This document shows, one piece after another, positions 2,086 through 32,996 of a DNA stretch of 33,722 nt. Within the stretch, counting starts at the first letter, position 1, and the number at the start of each line of letters is the position of its first letter. Source of the DNA: a virus; the IMG/VR virus record IMGVR_UViG_3300032053_000282, positions 1-33,722 of that record, one strand, 5' to 3'. The notes below the pieces were generated by a model, which was not told the DNA's origin, ran no database searches, and worked only from the letters and a program-made list of their open reading frames with translations. Both the position numbers and the translations under genes were made by a program.

Positions 2086-4224
2086 TTATGCCAGATAGCC
2101 GCCGTCTTCCGCGGCGATGTACTCGATCGAAGCGATGAGGTTCAGCGCCGTCGCCCCTCCGCCGGTCGGGTCGACTTGGATCGTCCCGCCTGCCGGGAGG
2201 TAGACCCTCCCGCCGTTGCTCGCCCACGACACCTGCTTCCCCGCCGCGTCGAGGTTCGCCCTGAGCCCGGCGACCGCGTCGACGAAGGTGACCACCGTCC
2301 CGGCCCCCGCCCCCTGAGCGACGATGTTCGTGAGGTCCGCCGTCTGGGCTGCGACTGCGTAGAGCGTGAAGCTCTTGATGAGGACCGGCTTCGTCGTCGC
2401 CGTTGCGATGACCGTAGCCGCGGCGTTCGCAGCGATGGCGATCGGGACGTTGAGCACCTGCGTCTTGCCGGTCAGCCGGTTCACCGCGGCGACCGCCCCG
2501 GTGACCCCGTTGTTCACCGTGGTCACTCCGAGTAGGAGGTTCTTTGCGTAGCCCATCAGCGACCCGCCAGCGACTGTGTCCGTCTTGTTGCCGACGACGT
2601 CCCGCATGTTCGTGTTCGCCGCTGAATCCGCGCCCGGGACCGCGATCGCCGTAGCCAGAACGCCAGCAGCGTCTGGAACCACAAGCGCGCCAATAAGCCC
2701 CGCAGCGGTTCCTGCGACATCAGGGACAACGAGCGCGTTGACCGCGTCCGCGAGCCACCTGATGAGCAGGCCAGCCCTGACGTTGTCCGCGATGGAGCCG
2801 TCCGCAGCGTCGAGGGAGGTCGTCTCGACCTCGGTCGCGCCTCCCGGAAGGTTGTCCGCGATCCACCGCAGGATGAGGCCCTCCCTCTGGTTCGCCGCGG
2901 CGCTCCCGGCTCCGATGCCGAGAGAAGCAGTTTCAAGCGCCGTCCTTGAAGCGGAGAGCCCGAAGGTTCCGCTATCCAGCCGGTCCGTCACGAGGCAGGT
3001 GTAGAGCGGCTTCCCTGCAGTGTCAGGTATTCCCAGCGCGGCGAGCAAGCTCTGGAGGTTCGTCTGAGCGACGAAGTCGCCGATGTTGCCGTAGAGCGAT
3101 TTGTTCGCCGCGTCCGGGTTGCCGAGCAGCGCAACGATCGTCTGGAGGTTCGTCCTCGCGGAGGGATTGCCGAGGTCCGTCTGGATCGCGTCGACCGCCG
3201 CCTGCACGTACTCCTGCCGCTCGACCACCGACCCGTCGGCGTTCGCCACCACGAGAGAGGTGTCAGCCACGTTGTTGTTGTTGTTCGCCCCGAGGAGGAC
3301 GCTCATCCAAGCGTCGCGCGGGAGGATGGTGTACGTCGCAGACGCCACGATCGGAAGCGGGAACGGGTTCTCGACCGTCACCGTGTCCGACGCCGCGTCG
3401 AAGTCGGAGACGACCCTCGAAAGCCCGACGTTCGCCCCGGACGTCATGACGAGAATCTGCCCGTTGAAGTAGTCGTCCACCTGCGTGAGTGCGTTGTCAA
3501 CGAGGGTCGCCGTGGTTCCGTTGTCAGCCGTGCCGCTGATCGTCCCGGCTATCCCGAGGCCCGCGAGAATCGCGGCGAGGTCCGCCGCAACCGATCCGGC
3601 TGCTCCGTACCCGAGCTGCACGTTCAAGCTCTGCGCCGCGGGGTTGCCGAGGATTCCGTAGATGTCACCGAGCGTCGCGGCGGATCCGTCGCCTACGTCG
3701 TCCATCAGGTCGGCGATGTTCCCGTCGATGGAGTCGAACCGGTCCTTGACCGTAGAGGCGTCGTTGCCGAACTTCGCCGTCAGGTCCGCGAGCGAGTGGG
3801 CCCTCATCGGTCCGACGAGGCCAGCAACGTCGCGCATCTGGTCAGTGTGGTTCGCGTACCCCGTCTTCCCGTTCATGTACGCGGCGGCCGCTAGGTCGAC
3901 TCCTGCGCCCGGAGCTGCTAGGACGGAGACCGCAGACGCCGGGCCGACGGACGGGCTCACGATCTCGAAGTGGTCCGAGTTCCACGTGCAGAGCGTCCCC
4001 GTGAGCGAGGCCGCGAGCGCCGTCTGGACCGCCGTCGCGACGAGCGCCATCGTGGTCGCCCCCGTGAAGTCCGGGGTCACGTTGGAGTACTTCGTCCCGT
4101 CGATCGTGACCGTGAATTTTCCTGTGTTCGTGAGCGCGGCCCACGTCGCAGCGACCGCAGTCCCGGCCGCGCCGCAGACAAGCCGCGCCGCTCTGGCCGT
4201 GGTATCAGTTTTTGCGTAACCCAT
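2086..4224 (-). CDS. Large low-complexity tail protein (fibre/whisker type)
   Basis: A 712-residue protein, strongly enriched in Ala, Gly, Leu, Asn and Asp. Residues about 20-125 form a beta-rich domain with the run GKFTVTIDGTKYSNVTPDF and a later DHFEIVSPSVGPASAVSVL. This resembles the DUF3383-type fold of phage tail proteins, by eye only. The middle holds degenerate repeats around LLGNPDAANKSLYGNIGDF and ALGIPDTAGKPLY, and a later pair around REGLILRWIADNLPGG and RAGLLIRWLADAVN. The C-terminus looks like a globular beta domain. Length, repeats and position among appendage genes suggest an elongated fibre or whisker. No family was identified with certainty. Confidence 0.65.
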   Translation of the reverse strand: MGYAKTDTTARAARLVCGAAGTAVAATWAALTNTGKFTVTIDGTKYSNVTPDFTGATTMALVATAVQTALAASLTGTLCTWNSDHFEIVSPSVGPASAVSVLAAPGAGVDLAAAAYMNGKTGYANHTDQMRDVAGLVGPMRAHSLADLTAKFGNDASTVKDRFDSIDGNIADLMDDVGDGSAATLGDIYGILGNPAAQSLNVQLGYGAAGSVAADLAAILAGLGIAGTISGTADNGTTATLVDNALTQVDDYFNGQILVMTSGANVGLSRVVSDFDAASDTVTVENPFPLPIVASATYTILPRDAWMSVLLGANNNNNVADTSLVVANADGSVVERQEYVQAAVDAIQTDLGNPSARTNLQTIVALLGNPDAANKSLYGNIGDFVAQTNLQSLLAALGIPDTAGKPLYTCLVTDRLDSGTFGLSASRTALETASLGIGAGSAAANQREGLILRWIADNLPGGATEVETTSLDAADGSIADNVRAGLLIRWLADAVNALVVPDVAGTAAGLIGALVVPDAAGVLATAIAVPGADSAANTNMRDVVGNKTDTVAGGSLMGYAKNLLLGVTTVNNGVTGAVAAVNRLTGKTQVLNVPIAIAANAAATVIATATTKPVLIKSFTLYAVAAQTADLTNIVAQGAGAGTVVTFVDAVAGLRANLDAAGKQVSWASNGGRVYLPAGGTIQVDPTGGGATALNLIASIEYIAAEDGGYLA

Positions 4225-14464: not shown

Positions 14465-14707
14465 TTACAGCTGCTCCACCTTGTGCGCCTTCCCGACGTG
14501 CGTCTGCATCCCGCGCTCCGTCTTGCACTCGAACCCGCAGACGTTGCACTTGAACCCCGTGGGGCTCTCCTCCGGCGGGGGCGGCGCGACGACCGGCTCC
14601 TCCGGCTGCTCGTCCGCGTCGTGGTAGAAGTCCCTCCGGTCCTTCGGAGGGCGGTCGAGGTTCTCCCGCGTGAAGTCCGGAATCTTGTTGCCGTTCTTGT
14701 ACGACAT
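14465..14707 (-). CDS. Small protein with C2H2 zinc finger
   Basis: An 80-residue protein with a charged N-terminus, a Pro/Glu-rich linker (34-50) and one zinc finger. Cys54, Cys57, His70 and His75 are spaced C-x2-C-x12-H-x4-H, the canonical C2H2 spacing, in FKCNVCGFECKTERGMQTH. It has a Shine-Dalgarno sequence (GGGAGGTC) and lies between the capsid-associated gene and the tail adaptor. Classical C2H2 fingers are uncommon in bacteria but known in some phages and in the Ros/MucR group. It may bind nucleic acid or bridge proteins in the neck; the function is unknown. Confidence 0.75.
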   Translation of the reverse strand: MSYKNGNKIPDFTRENLDRPPKDRRDFYHDADEQPEEPVVAPPPPEESPTGFKCNVCGFECKTERGMQTHVGKAHKVEQL

Positions 14708-14731: not shown

Positions 14732-14756
14732 AAAAGCGGGGCGACCGAAGTCGCCC
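14732..14756 (-). terminator. Intrinsic-terminator-like hairpin behind the capsid genes
   Basis: On the minus strand a perfect 7-bp stem GGGCGAC/GTCGCCC closes a TTCG tetraloop (14739-14756) and is followed, after C-G-C, by TTTT (14732-14735). It lies in the 64-base gap between the capsid-associated gene and the zinc-finger gene. The T run is short, so partial termination that lowers expression of the neck genes relative to capsid is likely. A stabilising 3' end for capsid mRNA is an alternative. Confidence 0.65.
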
Positions 14757-14771
14757 TGCCCTTTAACCCGA

Positions 14772-15551
14772 CTATGCCGAGATCATCGGCGAACCCGCGA
14801 CACCCGTCTGGATGTGGCAGAGGTTCGTCCTGCCGACCTGATCCGTCGTGATCGACGTGCAGGGCAGCGAACCGACGAGGATGGACCGGCTGGACGTCGA
14901 GCTGACCGTCGCCAGACCACCGGAGCCCGTGATGATTCCCTTCGGCCCCGTCACGACCGTGCCAGCTGCCACGAAGTTCGCGAAGGGGTTCCAGCCGTAG
15001 AACTGCACCCAGCCGTAGTAGTAGATGGTCTGCGTCGCCATCGCCACGCCGCGGCAGAGCAGCGACTCGTCGCCCGCGCCAGCCGCAGAGACGCGGTGGG
15101 GCAGGATGACCTCGAAGTCGTCGCCCGAGGAGGGTGCAACGCTCCAAGCGTCGTCCGGGTTGAGATACAGCACCCCGGTCGTGTTGGAGATGATGCGCGC
15201 CGTCTCGCCTTCGGGCGCGGCACCGGCAGCGCCGGTGTCGTCCTTGCAGCGGACGAGGCAGTCCTTCAGGATGTCTGCCGTGAAGGTTCCGGCGAGGACG
15301 ACCGTCGTGGTCGAAGTGCCGGTCGCGTTTGCCACCGCGATGTTCGCAATCTGCGTGTTCCACGAGCCCTTCACTGCGGCGTCGTGGAAGCGCACGTACT
15401 CGAAGCCCCTGAGTCCCCAGATCGGGTGAACGTCCCACCGAGCCGAGCCGAGGATTTCCTGCGCGACTGCGTCGGAGGCATCGAGGTCAGTCGCCCAAGC
15501 CAGACGGCCGTTGCCGTTCGCGGCGAGGGATGCTGCTGATGCGATAGTCAT
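14772..15551 (-). CDS. Capsid-associated (decoration-type) protein candidate
   Basis: A 259-residue protein directly after the major capsid gene, with an AAGGAGGACAG Shine-Dalgarno. It is rich in Gly, Ala, Thr, Val and Ser, with beta-type segments such as TSTTTVVLAGTFTADIL and TIYYYGWVQFYGWNPFANFV. There is no signal peptide or enzyme motif. Gene order (scaffold, major capsid, this gene, neck) is where podovirus-like genomes often encode a decoration or head-fibre protein. Family not recognised. Confidence 0.6.
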   Translation of the reverse strand: MTIASAASLAANGNGRLAWATDLDASDAVAQEILGSARWDVHPIWGLRGFEYVRFHDAAVKGSWNTQIANIAVANATGTSTTTVVLAGTFTADILKDCLVRCKDDTGAAGAAPEGETARIISNTTGVLYLNPDDAWSVAPSSGDDFEVILPHRVSAAGAGDESLLCRGVAMATQTIYYYGWVQFYGWNPFANFVAAGTVVTGPKGIITGSGGLATVSSTSSRSILVGSLPCTSITTDQVGRTNLCHIQTGVAGSPMISA

Positions 15552-26152: not shown

Positions 26153-26353
26153 TCAGAACGGTATCGAATCATCGAAGTCCATCTCACCCTGCGAAACGAC
26201 CGGCATCTTGTGGTCGTTCGGTTTCCAGCCGCCTGCCTCAAGCGCGAGCGCCTTCTCCCGCATCTCCTTCGGCGCGCTGTTCCAGATTCTCCCGTCCCGC
26301 TTCCAATAGAGCAGGCCCTTGACCTGCGCCAAGTCGTTGACGTCCCATCTCAT
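26153..26353 (-). CDS. 66-residue protein with SSB-type C-terminal tip
   Basis: The ATG at 26353 has AGGGAGGCGATCA upstream. Residues 1-50 form a Trp-containing charged domain (WDVNDLAQVKGLLYWKRDG). The C-terminus is EMDFDDSIPF, almost identical to the end of bacterial SSB (MDFDDDIPF). The bacterial SSB tip is the docking site for RecO, PriA, Exo I, DNA polymerase chi and others. There is no OB fold in this length. The gene follows the helicase-loader-like gene, which it overlaps by 116 bases. A role in recruiting or competing for host SSB partners is inference. Confidence 0.75.
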   Translation of the reverse strand: MRWDVNDLAQVKGLLYWKRDGRIWNSAPKEMREKALALEAGGWKPNDHKMPVVSQGEMDFDDSIPF

Positions 26354-28775: not shown

Positions 28776-29288
28776 TTATACTCCTTTCCAGCTCCTGTCC
28801 TTCAAGATTCCACAAATACTCTGCTCGCTTACCATAAACATTTTCGCGAGGTCCCTGTTGCTTTTTGTCGTTTGCATTTTTCGTATATCCTTCACGTCTT
28901 GAATTGTTAATTTTGCATTGGCTCCCCTTCGGGTATTTTCAGCAATCGTCACCGGCTCCAGATGTTCCGGGTTCACGCATCGTCTGTTTCTGCAAATATG
29001 ATCCAACGTCAACCCATCCGGTATTCGTCCCTTAAGTTTTTCATAGACGAAACGGTGCGCCAGCAAATGACCTCTTTGCCCATACCCTCCTCGAAGAATA
29101 TGTCGCTCCCAGTTCCAGCATCCGGTTGCTTTATCAACAGACCACATCTTCTCCGACAAACGATTCCAATGTCCCCTGATGAACTTAATGGGTTTCCCTT
29201 TTTGCCATCCCTTTGTGGTGTCGGTCTGCTTTGCGATTTTCGTTTTTTGCCCGCAACCACATTGACAAAGACCACTAGGAATTTTCAT
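28776..29288 (-). CDS. HNH homing-type endonuclease
   Basis: 170 residues. N-terminal CQCGCGQKTKI and KFIRGHWN precede an HNH domain: CWNWERHILRGGYGQ, LLAHRFVYEKLKGRIP, LTLDHICRNRRCVNPEHLEP, then TIAENTRRG. A C-terminal HTH-like stretch (NRDLAKMFMVSEQSICGIL) suits DNA recognition. The gene is plainly AT-richer than both neighbours. It sits between two functionally linked recombination genes and its ATG lies 14 bases inside the ERF gene end. These facts indicate a mobile insertion. Confidence 0.85.
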   Translation of the reverse strand: MKIPSGLCQCGCGQKTKIAKQTDTTKGWQKGKPIKFIRGHWNRLSEKMWSVDKATGCWNWERHILRGGYGQRGHLLAHRFVYEKLKGRIPDGLTLDHICRNRRCVNPEHLEPVTIAENTRRGANAKLTIQDVKDIRKMQTTKSNRDLAKMFMVSEQSICGILKDRSWKGV

Positions 29289-30045
29289 CGCCGGGCTCCC
29301 TCGTTGGTTCTTTTTGGTCTTGGACCCAAGTGCAGATATCTGTGTAGTCGTCCTTCGTGATGAGCTTCGTCGAGTCGATGTGGAACGACTCGGCGAGGTG
29401 CTTCTTCAGCGTCTCGTTGCTGACGCCCGACTCCTTGCAGAGCGCGAACAGGCGCTTCTGCTGCGGCTCCGAGATCGCGTTCTTCGGGCGCTCGACCGTG
29501 GCCCCGAGAGCGTCTGCGGCCGCCTGCGGCATGATCCCCGTCGCTCCGGTGGGCTTCGCAGCCGCCGCCGTCTCGGACGCCCGCTTCGGCATCGGCGTCG
29601 AGCCCTTGCCGGACGCGGCGTTGCCGTCGTCGTCCTCGTCCGAGACCACCCCGACCATCGCCGCGAGAGCGTACCGCCTCGCATAGGTGATCGCCGATCC
29701 GACGCCCTGCGGGTCGTTCTTGACCGGCTTGAGCGTCAGAGACCCGCGGACCCATTGCCCGGAGGAGTGGACGATCATCGTGTGGATCGTCACCCCTTCC
29801 CCGGAGCCCGAGGTCGGCTGCAGGACCGCGAGCTTCTGCTTCGAGAGCGCCGCCCGGCAGGAGTCCCAGACCTGCGAGAGGTCCGCGTAGCTGCTCTTGA
29901 AGAACGGATTCTCGCTGTCCTTCTTCGCGGCCTTCATCTCGCCCTGCGCCAGAGCGAGCGCCGCTGCCAGCTCCCCTATATCCGGGCTGAACTCCAGCGT
30001 CGGAGGCGCGGGCGGTGCCATGTCGTACTGCGGATTCGGTTCCAT
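29275..30045 (-). CDS. erf: ERF-family single-strand annealing recombinase
   Basis: 256 residues. The ERF core is at residues about 25-140: ELAAALALAQGEMKAAKKDS, NPFFKSSYADLSQVWDSCRA, LSKQKLAVLQPTSG, HSSGQWVRGSLTLKPVKNDP and the signature GSAITYARRYALAAMVGV, then DEDDDGN. ERF proteins anneal single strands and circularise or recombine phage DNA. The C-terminal part is a low-complexity linker and a small domain (KRLFALCKESGVSNETLKKH). The start has AAAGGAAAATCAAC upstream. A sigma70-like promoter pointing the other way begins two bases before its ATG. Confidence 0.88.
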   Translation of the reverse strand: MEPNPQYDMAPPAPPTLEFSPDIGELAAALALAQGEMKAAKKDSENPFFKSSYADLSQVWDSCRAALSKQKLAVLQPTSGSGEGVTIHTMIVHSSGQWVRGSLTLKPVKNDPQGVGSAITYARRYALAAMVGVVSDEDDDGNAASGKGSTPMPKRASETAAAAKPTGATGIMPQAAADALGATVERPKNAISEPQQKRLFALCKESGVSNETLKKHLAESFHIDSTKLITKDDYTDICTWVQDQKEPTREPGDENS

Positions 30046-30046
30046 G

Positions 30047-30075
30047 TTGATTTTCCTTTCGACGGCAAGTATGAT
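30047..30075 (+). promoter_or_regulatory. Sigma70-like promoter of a candidate antisense RNA
   Basis: TTGATT (30047-30052), a 17-base spacer and TATGAT (30070-30075) give a good sigma70-type match (4/6 and 5/6) on the plus strand. The predicted start is near 30082. It fires away from the ERF ATG (30045), opposite to the local genes. The inverted repeat GGCAAGT (30064-30070) and ACTTGCC (30092-30098) flanks the -10 and start region and could be a repressor operator. Confidence 0.55.
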
Positions 30076-30081
30076 GTCCGC

Positions 30082-30142
30082 ACCCTGAAGGACTTGCCTC
30101 CCTCGTGGGTGGCGGCGGTTCCGAAACGGACCGCCGCTTTTT
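30082..30142 (+). ncRNA. Candidate small antisense RNA (OOP-like layout)
   Basis: A roughly 60-nt transcript is framed by a sigma70-like promoter (30047-30075) and an intrinsic terminator (30112-30142). It lies opposite to the minus-strand leader between the XRE-type gene and ERF. It has no ORF. Its 5' half is unstructured and contains TTGCCTCCCT (30094-30103), complementary to the AGGGAGGCA ribosome sites of several genes here. Its end lies next to the XRE gene's stop codon. This mirrors lambda OOP, a short antisense RNA between cII and O. No expression evidence; inference from signals. Confidence 0.55.
30112..30142 (+). terminator. Intrinsic terminator on the plus strand
   Basis: An 11-bp GC-rich stem (GCGGCGG then TCCG, pairing with CGGA then CCGCCGC, one bulged T at 30119) closes an AAA loop and is followed at once by TTTTT (30138-30142). 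On the minus strand there is no T run after the hairpin, so it does not serve the flanking leftward genes. A plus-strand terminator here implies a plus-strand transcript. Confidence 0.8.
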
Positions 30143-30148
30143 CTTCGC

Positions 30149-30361
30149 CTACTCGTAGAACCACCCGACCGGCTTCCCGAGAATCTTCGAGAGCGCGAGC
30201 ATATACTCGCCGCCGGGCGTGTGCTTCCCGCCCTCCCACATCTTGATGACCTGCCGCGACCCCTTGCCCGCGGTCTTCACCAGCTCGCGGTAGAGGTCCG
30301 AGGGGCTCATCCCCTTCGCAATTCTCGCGGCCTTCAGCCGGGCCGCCTTGAACTTCCGCAT
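30149..30361 (-). CDS. XRE-family HTH protein (repressor/Cro candidate)
   Basis: 70 residues, a single helix-turn-helix domain: FKAARLKAARIAKGMSPSDL, then GSRQVIKMWEGGKHTPGGEY and LALSKILGKPVGWFYE. The W-E-x-G-K-x-x-P and L-A-x-I-L-G-K-P-V-x-W pattern is that of the XRE/Cro-CI class. AGGAGGTGATGAA precedes the ATG. It has no C-terminal oligomerisation or peptidase domain, so it resembles Cro or a short regulator. The neighbouring inverted repeats (30064-30098 and 31466-31506) are possible operators. Confidence 0.75.
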   Translation of the reverse strand: MRKFKAARLKAARIAKGMSPSDLYRELVKTAGKGSRQVIKMWEGGKHTPGGEYMLALSKILGKPVGWFYE

Positions 30362-30670: not shown

Positions 30671-30892
30671 TCACCCGTCCCCGTACCCGTACCCGGACCC
30701 GTCCCCGTACCCGGACCCGGACCCGTACCCGGACCCGGACCCGTCCCCGTCCCCGTCCCCGTCCCCGTACCCGGACCCGGACCCGTCCCCGTACCCGGAC
30801 CCGTACCCGGACCCGGACCCGTCCCCGTCCCCGTCCCCGTACCCGGACCCGGACCCGTGGTGCCGAAGTTTAATCTTCGATGTGCTTTGCAT
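30671..30892 (-). CDS. Gly-(Ser/Tyr/Asp) dipeptide-repeat ORF
   Basis: 73 codons. A basic head MQSTSKIKLRHHG is followed by about 30 Gly-X pairs in which X is Ser, Tyr or Asp, encoded by GGG-TCC, GGG-TAC and GGG-GAC. The ATG at 30892 lies inside the end of the DUF6948-like gene and has GGAGGCGACCT upstream, which argues for translation. The repeat array itself may be the functional element and the protein incidental. If made, it would be disordered and phase-separation-prone, like Gly-Tyr/Gly-Ser linkers. No family known to me. Confidence 0.5.
   Translation of the reverse strand: MQSTSKIKLRHHGSGSGYGDGDGDGSGSGYGSGYGDGSGSGYGDGDGDGDGSGSGYGSGSGYGDGSGYGYGDG
30674..30859. repeat. 31-copy hexamer array, G-quadruplex-prone
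   Basis: Thirty-one consecutive hexamers of the form CCCG(T/G)(A/C) on the plus strand: CCCGTC, CCCGTA or CCCGGA, with a last CCCGTG. On the minus strand GGG recurs exactly every six bases, a textbook potential G-quadruplex series. Units are grouped (for example two GA units then a run of TC then TA), showing growth by duplication of larger blocks. Copy number may differ between isolates and could be an assembly-sensitive value. Confidence 0.95.
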
Positions 30893-31263: not shown

Positions 31264-31440
31264 CTAGTGAATCCACAACAGCGACCCGAGCAGCGCACCA
31301 AGCGCCAGCCCGGCCGCGCACATCCACAGCAGGTTCCTCTCCTCTCTGCGGCGGTCCGCCGCGCTGACGTACAGCTTCGCCGCGTCGAGAACCCGCGGGC
31401 CTTCCAGCTCCCTCTGTCCGTTGAACAAGTAGATCGTCAT
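31264..31440 (-). CDS. 58-residue membrane protein, first gene of the leftward unit
   Basis: ATG at 31440 with GGGGGAGGCA directly upstream; stop TAG at 31264. The N-terminal 35 residues are soluble (MTIYLFNGQRELEGPRVLDA then an Arg/Glu-rich turn). A single hydrophobic span closes the protein (LLWMCAAGLALGALLGSLLW). It is the most upstream minus-strand gene and so probably the first made. Small early membrane proteins of phages often act in superinfection exclusion or host takeover; here that is only a guess. Confidence 0.6.
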   Translation of the reverse strand: MTIYLFNGQRELEGPRVLDAAKLYVSAADRRREERNLLWMCAAGLALGALLGSLLWIH

Positions 31441-31465: not shown

Positions 31466-31506
31466 GTGTAAAATATCCTTCCACAAAAGAAAAGGAAATT
31501 TTACAC
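31466..31506. promoter_or_regulatory. 15-bp inverted repeat in the divergent control region
   Basis: The left arm 31466-31480 (GTGTAAAATATCCTT) and right arm 31492-31506 (AAGGAAATTTTACAC) pair at 14 of 15 positions around an 11-base A-rich centre. The element lies in an AT-rich island of a GC-rich genome, 26 bases upstream of the first leftward ATG. It contains TAAAAT and TATTTT, which could serve as -10 boxes. It is a good candidate operator for the leftward promoter. It has no T run and so is not an ordinary terminator. Confidence 0.6.
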
Positions 31507-31630
31507 CCGCCGCAAGACCCGACCCGTCGCCTTTTGAAGGCGCGGCGTTCTAATCGCGGCAGGGCGCTATTAGCCGGAGAAGCCCCCGTAAAGGTCGACA
31601 GGGCGCAGCATAGGCGGCTCACTTATTCCC

Positions 31631-31659
31631 TTGAAAAACCCAAGCGATTCGGCTAGTAT
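31631..31659 (+). promoter_or_regulatory. Sigma70-like promoter of the rightward operon
   Basis: TTGAAA (31631-31636), an exact 17-base spacer and TAGTAT (31654-31659). A start near 31666 would give a leader of about 22 bases holding the very strong ribosome site of the first gene. Upstream (31441-31630) I see no gene, but small palindromes at 31528-31542 (CGCCTT/AAGGCG, 3-base loop) and CTAAT/ATTAG (31550-31573). Confidence 0.65.
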
Positions 31660-32696: not shown

Positions 32697-32717
32697 TCTT
32701 CCCGGCAGGGATGAGAG

Positions 32718-32740
32718 GGGCGGCTCCGGCCGCCCTTTTT
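32718..32740 (+). terminator. Intrinsic terminator of the rightward operon
   Basis: A perfect 7-bp stem GGGCGGC/GCCGCCC with a 4-base loop, followed by TTTTT and ATTT. It lies 21 bases after the last rightward stop. The T run overlaps the stop codon of the converging Rz1-like gene, so the two operons meet here. Confidence 0.9.
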
Positions 32741-32996
32741 ATTTGGGGAGGACCCAGACCGGCTCGGCCTCGATCTTCAGCCGGTCGGCCTTGAGGTTCT
32801 CGTCGTTCAGGAGCACCGGCTCGATGGTGACCTCGCACCACCGCTTCCCGGCGGCCGTCTTGCAGTTCTTCACCTCGACGGCGTTGAGCTCAGGGCGCGC
32901 CCAGAGCGGGCGCCTTGAGAGGCCATGTGCTGAGCATCCTTGAAGCGTCTGCATCAGGAATATCGCGAGACAGAATCTTGCGAACGCGCTGGTCAT
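32739..32996 (-). CDS. Rz1-like outer-membrane spanin lipoprotein
   Basis: 85 residues. The N-terminus MTSAFARFCLAIFLMQTLQGC has a basic residue, a hydrophobic stretch and the lipobox L-Q-G-C; lipidation would be at Cys21. The mature part is about 65 residues with a beta-type end (CEVTIEPVLLNDENLKADRL). The gene starts inside the Rz-like gene in another frame (107-base overlap), the classical overlapping Rz/Rz1 arrangement. Spanins fuse the two membranes in Gram-negative lysis. It lacks the Pro-rich segment of lambda Rz1. Confidence 0.75.
   Translation of the reverse strand: MTSAFARFCLAIFLMQTLQGCSAHGLSRRPLWARPELNAVEVKNCKTAAGKRWCEVTIEPVLLNDENLKADRLKIEAEPVWVLPK

Follow-up and report, generated by a model that had tools for sequence, protein, structure and literature searches.

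A putative antisense RNA gene between the XRE and ERF genes of an uncultured high-GC phage

Can a short RNA be transcribed against the genes of a phage, nearly all of which point the other way? This question is raised by the gap between two leftward genes, one for an XRE-type DNA-binding protein and one for the single-stranded DNA (ssDNA)-annealing protein ERF, in IMGVR_UViG_3300032053_000282. The record belongs to an uncultured phage of 63% G+C, and the window analysed here is the whole stretch of 33,722 bases, in which leftward orientation holds for nearly all genes. On balance, the signals in this DNA suggest that at positions 30047-30142 the phage encodes a short cis-antisense RNA acting on the XRE-ERF messenger, a reading that we consider somewhat probable. 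By its layout, the candidate is probably a further example of the class of phage cis-antisense RNAs known from lambda and P22.

A promoter and a terminator stand in tandem in the XRE-ERF gap

The gap measures 103 nt and separates the ERF start at 30045 from the XRE stop codon (30149-30151). An earlier note on this DNA had proposed that a plus-strand sigma70-like promoter and a strong plus-strand intrinsic terminator frame a transcript of roughly 60 nt here, amid leftward genes, and both signals and their layout were confirmed in the sequence. Scored with a sigma70 weight matrix, which may not represent the promoter type of the host, the promoter ranked first among all positions on both strands of the 33.7 kb window, and when the local sequence was dinucleotide-shuffled 2000 times, 0-2 shuffles matched its score. 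The matrix is a textbook one based on published frequencies; as the scores it gives are approximate in absolute terms, we relied on the rank. On the opposite strand, the promoter overlaps the translation start region of ERF with its ribosome site (AAAGGA, about plus-strand positions 30051-30059). The terminator hairpin, at about -21 kcal/mol, forms the most stable hairpin-plus-T-run of the window, and its T-run is found on the plus side only, the minus side having none.

The hairpin lies 35 bp past the promoter, on the same plus strand. A tandem of this strength (promoter score at least 11.2 and terminator at most -19, within 160 nt) appeared in 0 of 200 block shuffles that kept local composition, and much looser promoter-terminator pairs appeared in 5 of 200 composition-keeping shuffles. 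About 140 kb of high-GC capsid relatives contained no equally strong pair and a few looser ones, which were weaker on promoter or hairpin. Promoter-terminator pairs in G010 were ruled out as antisense units, being positioned in coding sequence or in sense. It is the tandem, rather than the hairpin alone, that sets 30047-30142 apart from chance.

With its start placed 7 nt past the -10 box and its end at the T-run, the predicted RNA (Table 1) would be opposed to its leftward neighbours and form a perfect complement of 61 of the 103 nt in the gap. It would begin 23 nt upstream of the ERF ribosome site and end 6 nt before the XRE stop codon, overlapping no coding sequence. The 61 nt of the plus strand were predicted to fold at -31.8 kcal/mol (z -4.0). 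The earlier note had taken the 5′ half of the RNA to be free, which this fold contradicts, as the half is predicted to form a hairpin of its own (ACCC...GGGU).

Table 1. Features of the XRE-ERF gap and of the surrounding window
Feature	Position	Strand or direction	Remarks
sigma70-type promoter, TTGATT-17-TATGAT	30047-30075	+	-35 at 30047-30052, -10 at 30070-30075; activity predicted from sequence
Predicted antisense RNA, about 61 nt	30082-30142	+	Predicted to fold into two hairpins; no notable open reading frame
5′ hairpin, ACCC...GGGT stem	30082-30110	+	Predicted; contains GCCTCCCT, the complement of ribosome-site variant AGGGAGGC
Intrinsic terminator	30111-30142	+	Hairpin GGCGGCGGTTCCGAAACGGACCGCCGCT at 30111-30138, 11 pairs, GC-rich; T5 at 30138-30142
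ERF ssDNA-annealing protein gene	29275-30045	-	PF04404, E = 1.7e-28; downstream of the gap
XRE/HTH_3 DNA-binding protein gene, 70 aa	30149-30361	-	PF01381, above its cut-off; upstream of the gap in the leftward operon
Structural block (portal, large terminase, capsid)	about 2-21 kb	leftward	
Recombination/replication region		leftward	ERF, exonuclease, HNH, NinG-like nuclease, weak replisome-organizer match
Short rightward gene group	31.7-32.7 kb	+	
Lysis genes	near right end of window		Include Rz-like spanin

Structured messenger and stand-alone terminator as alternatives

Several observations weigh against an antisense RNA gene. The hairpin alone is within chance, since shuffles of the whole window averaged 1.1 equally stable hairpins with a T-rich tail. 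The promoter agrees with the consensus at 9 of 12 bases, and part of its AT-richness stems from the ERF ribosome site. A sigma70 promoter type and RNase III are assumptions about the host. No antisense hairpin-terminator was found at the ERF start among ERF relatives (80 viral-contig loci kept and 23 genome contigs), and the nearest structural relative, G014 (34 kb; TerL 63%, capsid 61%), is without ERF, XRE or the unit. Finally, the minus strand of the same 61 nt folds at least equally well (-33.1 kcal/mol, z -4.3; whole gap, z -3.5), and the helix of the 5′ hairpin pairs better on that strand, having a G-U pair there and an A-C mismatch on the plus strand.

The minus-strand fold, together with the G-U pair of the first helix that is exclusive to this strand, would suit a gap that is a structured element of the leftward messenger, in which two or three hairpins stabilise, process or insulate the cistrons and the promoter and T-run are coincidental. 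However, the target of any antisense gene would fold likewise, and a structured messenger leaves unexplained both the plus-only T5 and the adjoining promoter, the best of the window. We regard this explanation as unlikely.

Promoter and terminator signals coincide with gene borders in this phage and are hence meaningful, because the second-best promoter of the window (31631-31659, plus strand) directly precedes the rightward genes and a clean intergenic terminator (32717-32741, plus strand) directly follows them. A terminator could also stand alone in the XRE-ERF gap, where it would halt stray rightward transcription before XRE and the divergent early promoters near 31.6 kb while the promoter-like site is idle. 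The terminator in the gap is indeed strong and one-sided within an otherwise leftward region, and the terminator that closes the rightward genes is of the same clean type. Such a role is nevertheless improbable, given that the best promoter of the window is positioned just before the hairpin and that the genes found suggest no other source from which rightward transcription might come.

Complementarity to ribosome sites of the phage

The earlier note had pointed out that the 5′ half of the RNA is complementary to AGGGAGGC, used as a ribosome site by five genes, and had itself called this weak evidence; both statements stand. The window has six exact copies of AGGGAGGC versus 1.8 expected. Five of them serve as ribosome sites, for the genes that start at 26353, 26786, 28231, 31972 and 32340, and the remaining copy is complementary to the candidate RNA. 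A small minus-strand protein translated from the copy in the gap was ruled out, a start codon at usable distance being missing. When the 5′ half was shuffled, 15% of the shuffles equalled its count of strongly bound start regions, and 0.7% equalled its mean binding energy to start regions. By these predicted energies a role of the candidate RNA in trans is possible, and weakly supported. That the unit encodes a trans-acting RNA, in which GCCUCCCU of the 5′ hairpin pairs with the AGGGAGGC ribosome sites of five other phage genes, seems highly doubtful: all five other exact copies are ribosome sites and the mean energy is rarely reached by chance, but the count of strongly bound start regions does not stand out, the predicted fold leaves the complementary segment partly paired, any CCUCC segment would behave alike, and a gene since lost may just as well have left the copy in the gap as a relic of its ribosome site.

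Comparison with antisense RNAs of lambda and P22

Lambda OOP overlaps the 3′ end of cII (PMC7067206), and the cut that it induces in the cII-O messenger falls beyond the gene, 12 nt downstream of cII (PMC5869508). Like lambda OOP (and the OOP of P22/BTP1), the candidate has, by sequence, its own sigma70-type promoter directed against an early operon, an intrinsic terminator and an RNA predicted to be well under 100 nt. Its site just after a small helix-turn-helix (HTH) regulator gene and before a DNA-metabolism gene is also that of lambda OOP. In contrast to OOP, which covers the 3′ coding end of cII, the candidate would end at about 30142, short of the XRE stop codon. Its flanks are an HTH_3 protein and ERF, rather than a cII-type activator and the replication initiator O, and the CII-like match of the XRE protein is weak (phrog_4836, E = 3e-4). 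The OOP-like layout proposed in the earlier note therefore holds in part: a plus-strand promoter-terminator unit does lie between an HTH gene and its neighbour, antisense to the leftward operon, but there is no overlap with XRE coding sequence, nor was an integrase present among the window proteins scanned, a scan that covered part of the open reading frames only. With no integrase among the scanned genes, a lysis-lysogeny role for the candidate RNA is unproven.

P22 sar is a short antisense RNA with its own promoter, opposed to the intercistronic region between arc, which encodes a DNA-binding protein, and ant (PMC7968456; PMC2629481), and it blocks the ant ribosome site (PMC7968456). Similarly, the whole RNA predicted here would lie within the gap behind a small DNA-binding protein gene. 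Unlike sar, it would leave the ribosome site of the next gene uncovered, given its predicted start; the genes are also different and the sequences do not match. By analogy of layout, the position of the candidate is matched better by sar than by OOP. A further phage antisense RNA, P22 sas, is opposed to the early-type gene sieB (PMC13397905). The candidate resembles sas in being directed, as predicted, against early-type genes, whereas sas is located inside sieB and switches its translation and the candidate sits in a gap.

Relatives of the window and of the unit

The best ERF relatives were 49-63% identical over the matched part. A search for TerL relatives showed that G014 has most of the structural block in common with the window. 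Relatives of XRE and of the exonuclease were not found in viral contigs, nor was another copy of the exact terminator hairpin. The 111-bp element had no match of note in phage and plasmid records, and no Rfam 15 family scored above its curated threshold (best sub-threshold E = 0.58). None of the DUF6948 relatives searched (61-78% identical) had the XRE gene. Because the XRE-ERF gap was kept in no relative found by searching with ERF, capsid, TerL and DUF6948, the missing unit in relatives is no failure of conservation.

A second unit of the same layout in AT-rich phages

Applying the same promoter-terminator scan to ERF loci, we detected another unit in 16 AT-rich phage loci (L019 at 3310-3400, L018, L024, L025, L030, L033, L038, L041-L043, L047, L051, L053, L057, L058 and L061). 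It consists of a reverse-strand promoter with a conserved TATAAT and an intrinsic terminator about 60 nt further on, and is positioned several hundred bases upstream of ERF. In L019 this distance is roughly 600 nt and the unit occupies the gap after a 96-aa gene, the end of which is overlapped by the terminator stem. Across the 16 loci, 7 of the 11 terminator pairs have changes on both sides. The -10 box sits between the arms of an inverted repeat (GAAACGAC...GTCGTTTC), and covariation over this repeat and the terminator hairpin was 0.32 versus 0.13 in shuffles, a value reached by 0 of 500. No Rfam match was obtained in the loci tested. These patterns make the AT-rich unit a probable conserved gene for an antisense RNA. 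Since its sequence does not visibly resemble the unit of the window and it is located at a different gene border, it represents the same layout independently, with better comparative support than the window's unit has.

Other features of the genome

Between the leftward and rightward early genes, two promoter-like sites stand back to back with a common -35 region (31631-31659, plus; 31635-31607, minus), and the GC-skew minimum of the window is at 31531. Upstream of the first leftward early gene (31264-31440) is a perfect 9-bp inverted repeat (GTGTAAAAT-N23-ATTTTACAC, 31466-31506), possibly an operator pair or a leader hairpin. An operator common to the small RNA promoter and the divergent early promoters was rejected, since the match concerned (CGGCAAGTATG / CGGCTAGTATG; 11 bp, one mismatch) is within chance by a rough count. 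A long repeat tract built of hexamers (CCCGTA/CCCGGA/CCCGTC) is located between leftward genes at 30674-30860, and one of its frames codes for a Gly-Ser-Asp-Tyr repeat. In the structural block, a clean minus-strand terminator (GGGCGACTTCGGTCGCCC-T4, about 14735-14759) lies between genes 14772-15551 and 14465-14707. A putative M15-type endolysin frame appears to run across both contig ends (33722 / 1), with a frame shift at the junction; the record therefore probably represents a circular or permuted genome that is complete but for a few bases.

Proposed mechanism and implications

From the signals in the gap, their rank and their layout, we infer transcription, pairing, cleavage and a regulatory effect. 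Host RNA polymerase would start at the 30047-30075 promoter and stop at the hairpin and T5, giving a two-hairpin RNA. This antisense RNA would pair with the leftward messenger to form a long duplex between XRE and ERF, which would most likely be cut there by an enzyme of the RNase III type. Cleavage would lower or uncouple expression of the upstream XRE regulator gene, comparable to OOP acting just downstream of cII, and collision with leftward polymerase might add to this. An antisense RNA that is purely intercistronic can act by cleavage, because the OOP cleavage site is itself outside cII (PMC5869508). The ERF ribosome site is out of reach of the RNA, and therefore its effect would be expected on the stability or coupling of the XRE-ERF messenger. 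A more far-reaching scenario, in which a phage without a recognisable lysogeny module times its early expression by a dedicated antisense RNA, possibly acting also in trans on its own AGGGAGGC sites, is one to which we give very little weight.

The candidate RNA would leave the known mechanism unchanged. If transcribed, it would extend the known antisense RNA genes to an uncultured, high-GC phage distant from lambda and P22, with a position in the recombination operon next to a small regulator. Short intercistronic antisense RNAs are a class overlooked by genome annotation because only proteins are called. Transcription of the XRE-ERF unit would favour the independent recurrence of short intercistronic antisense RNAs in the early operons of phages.
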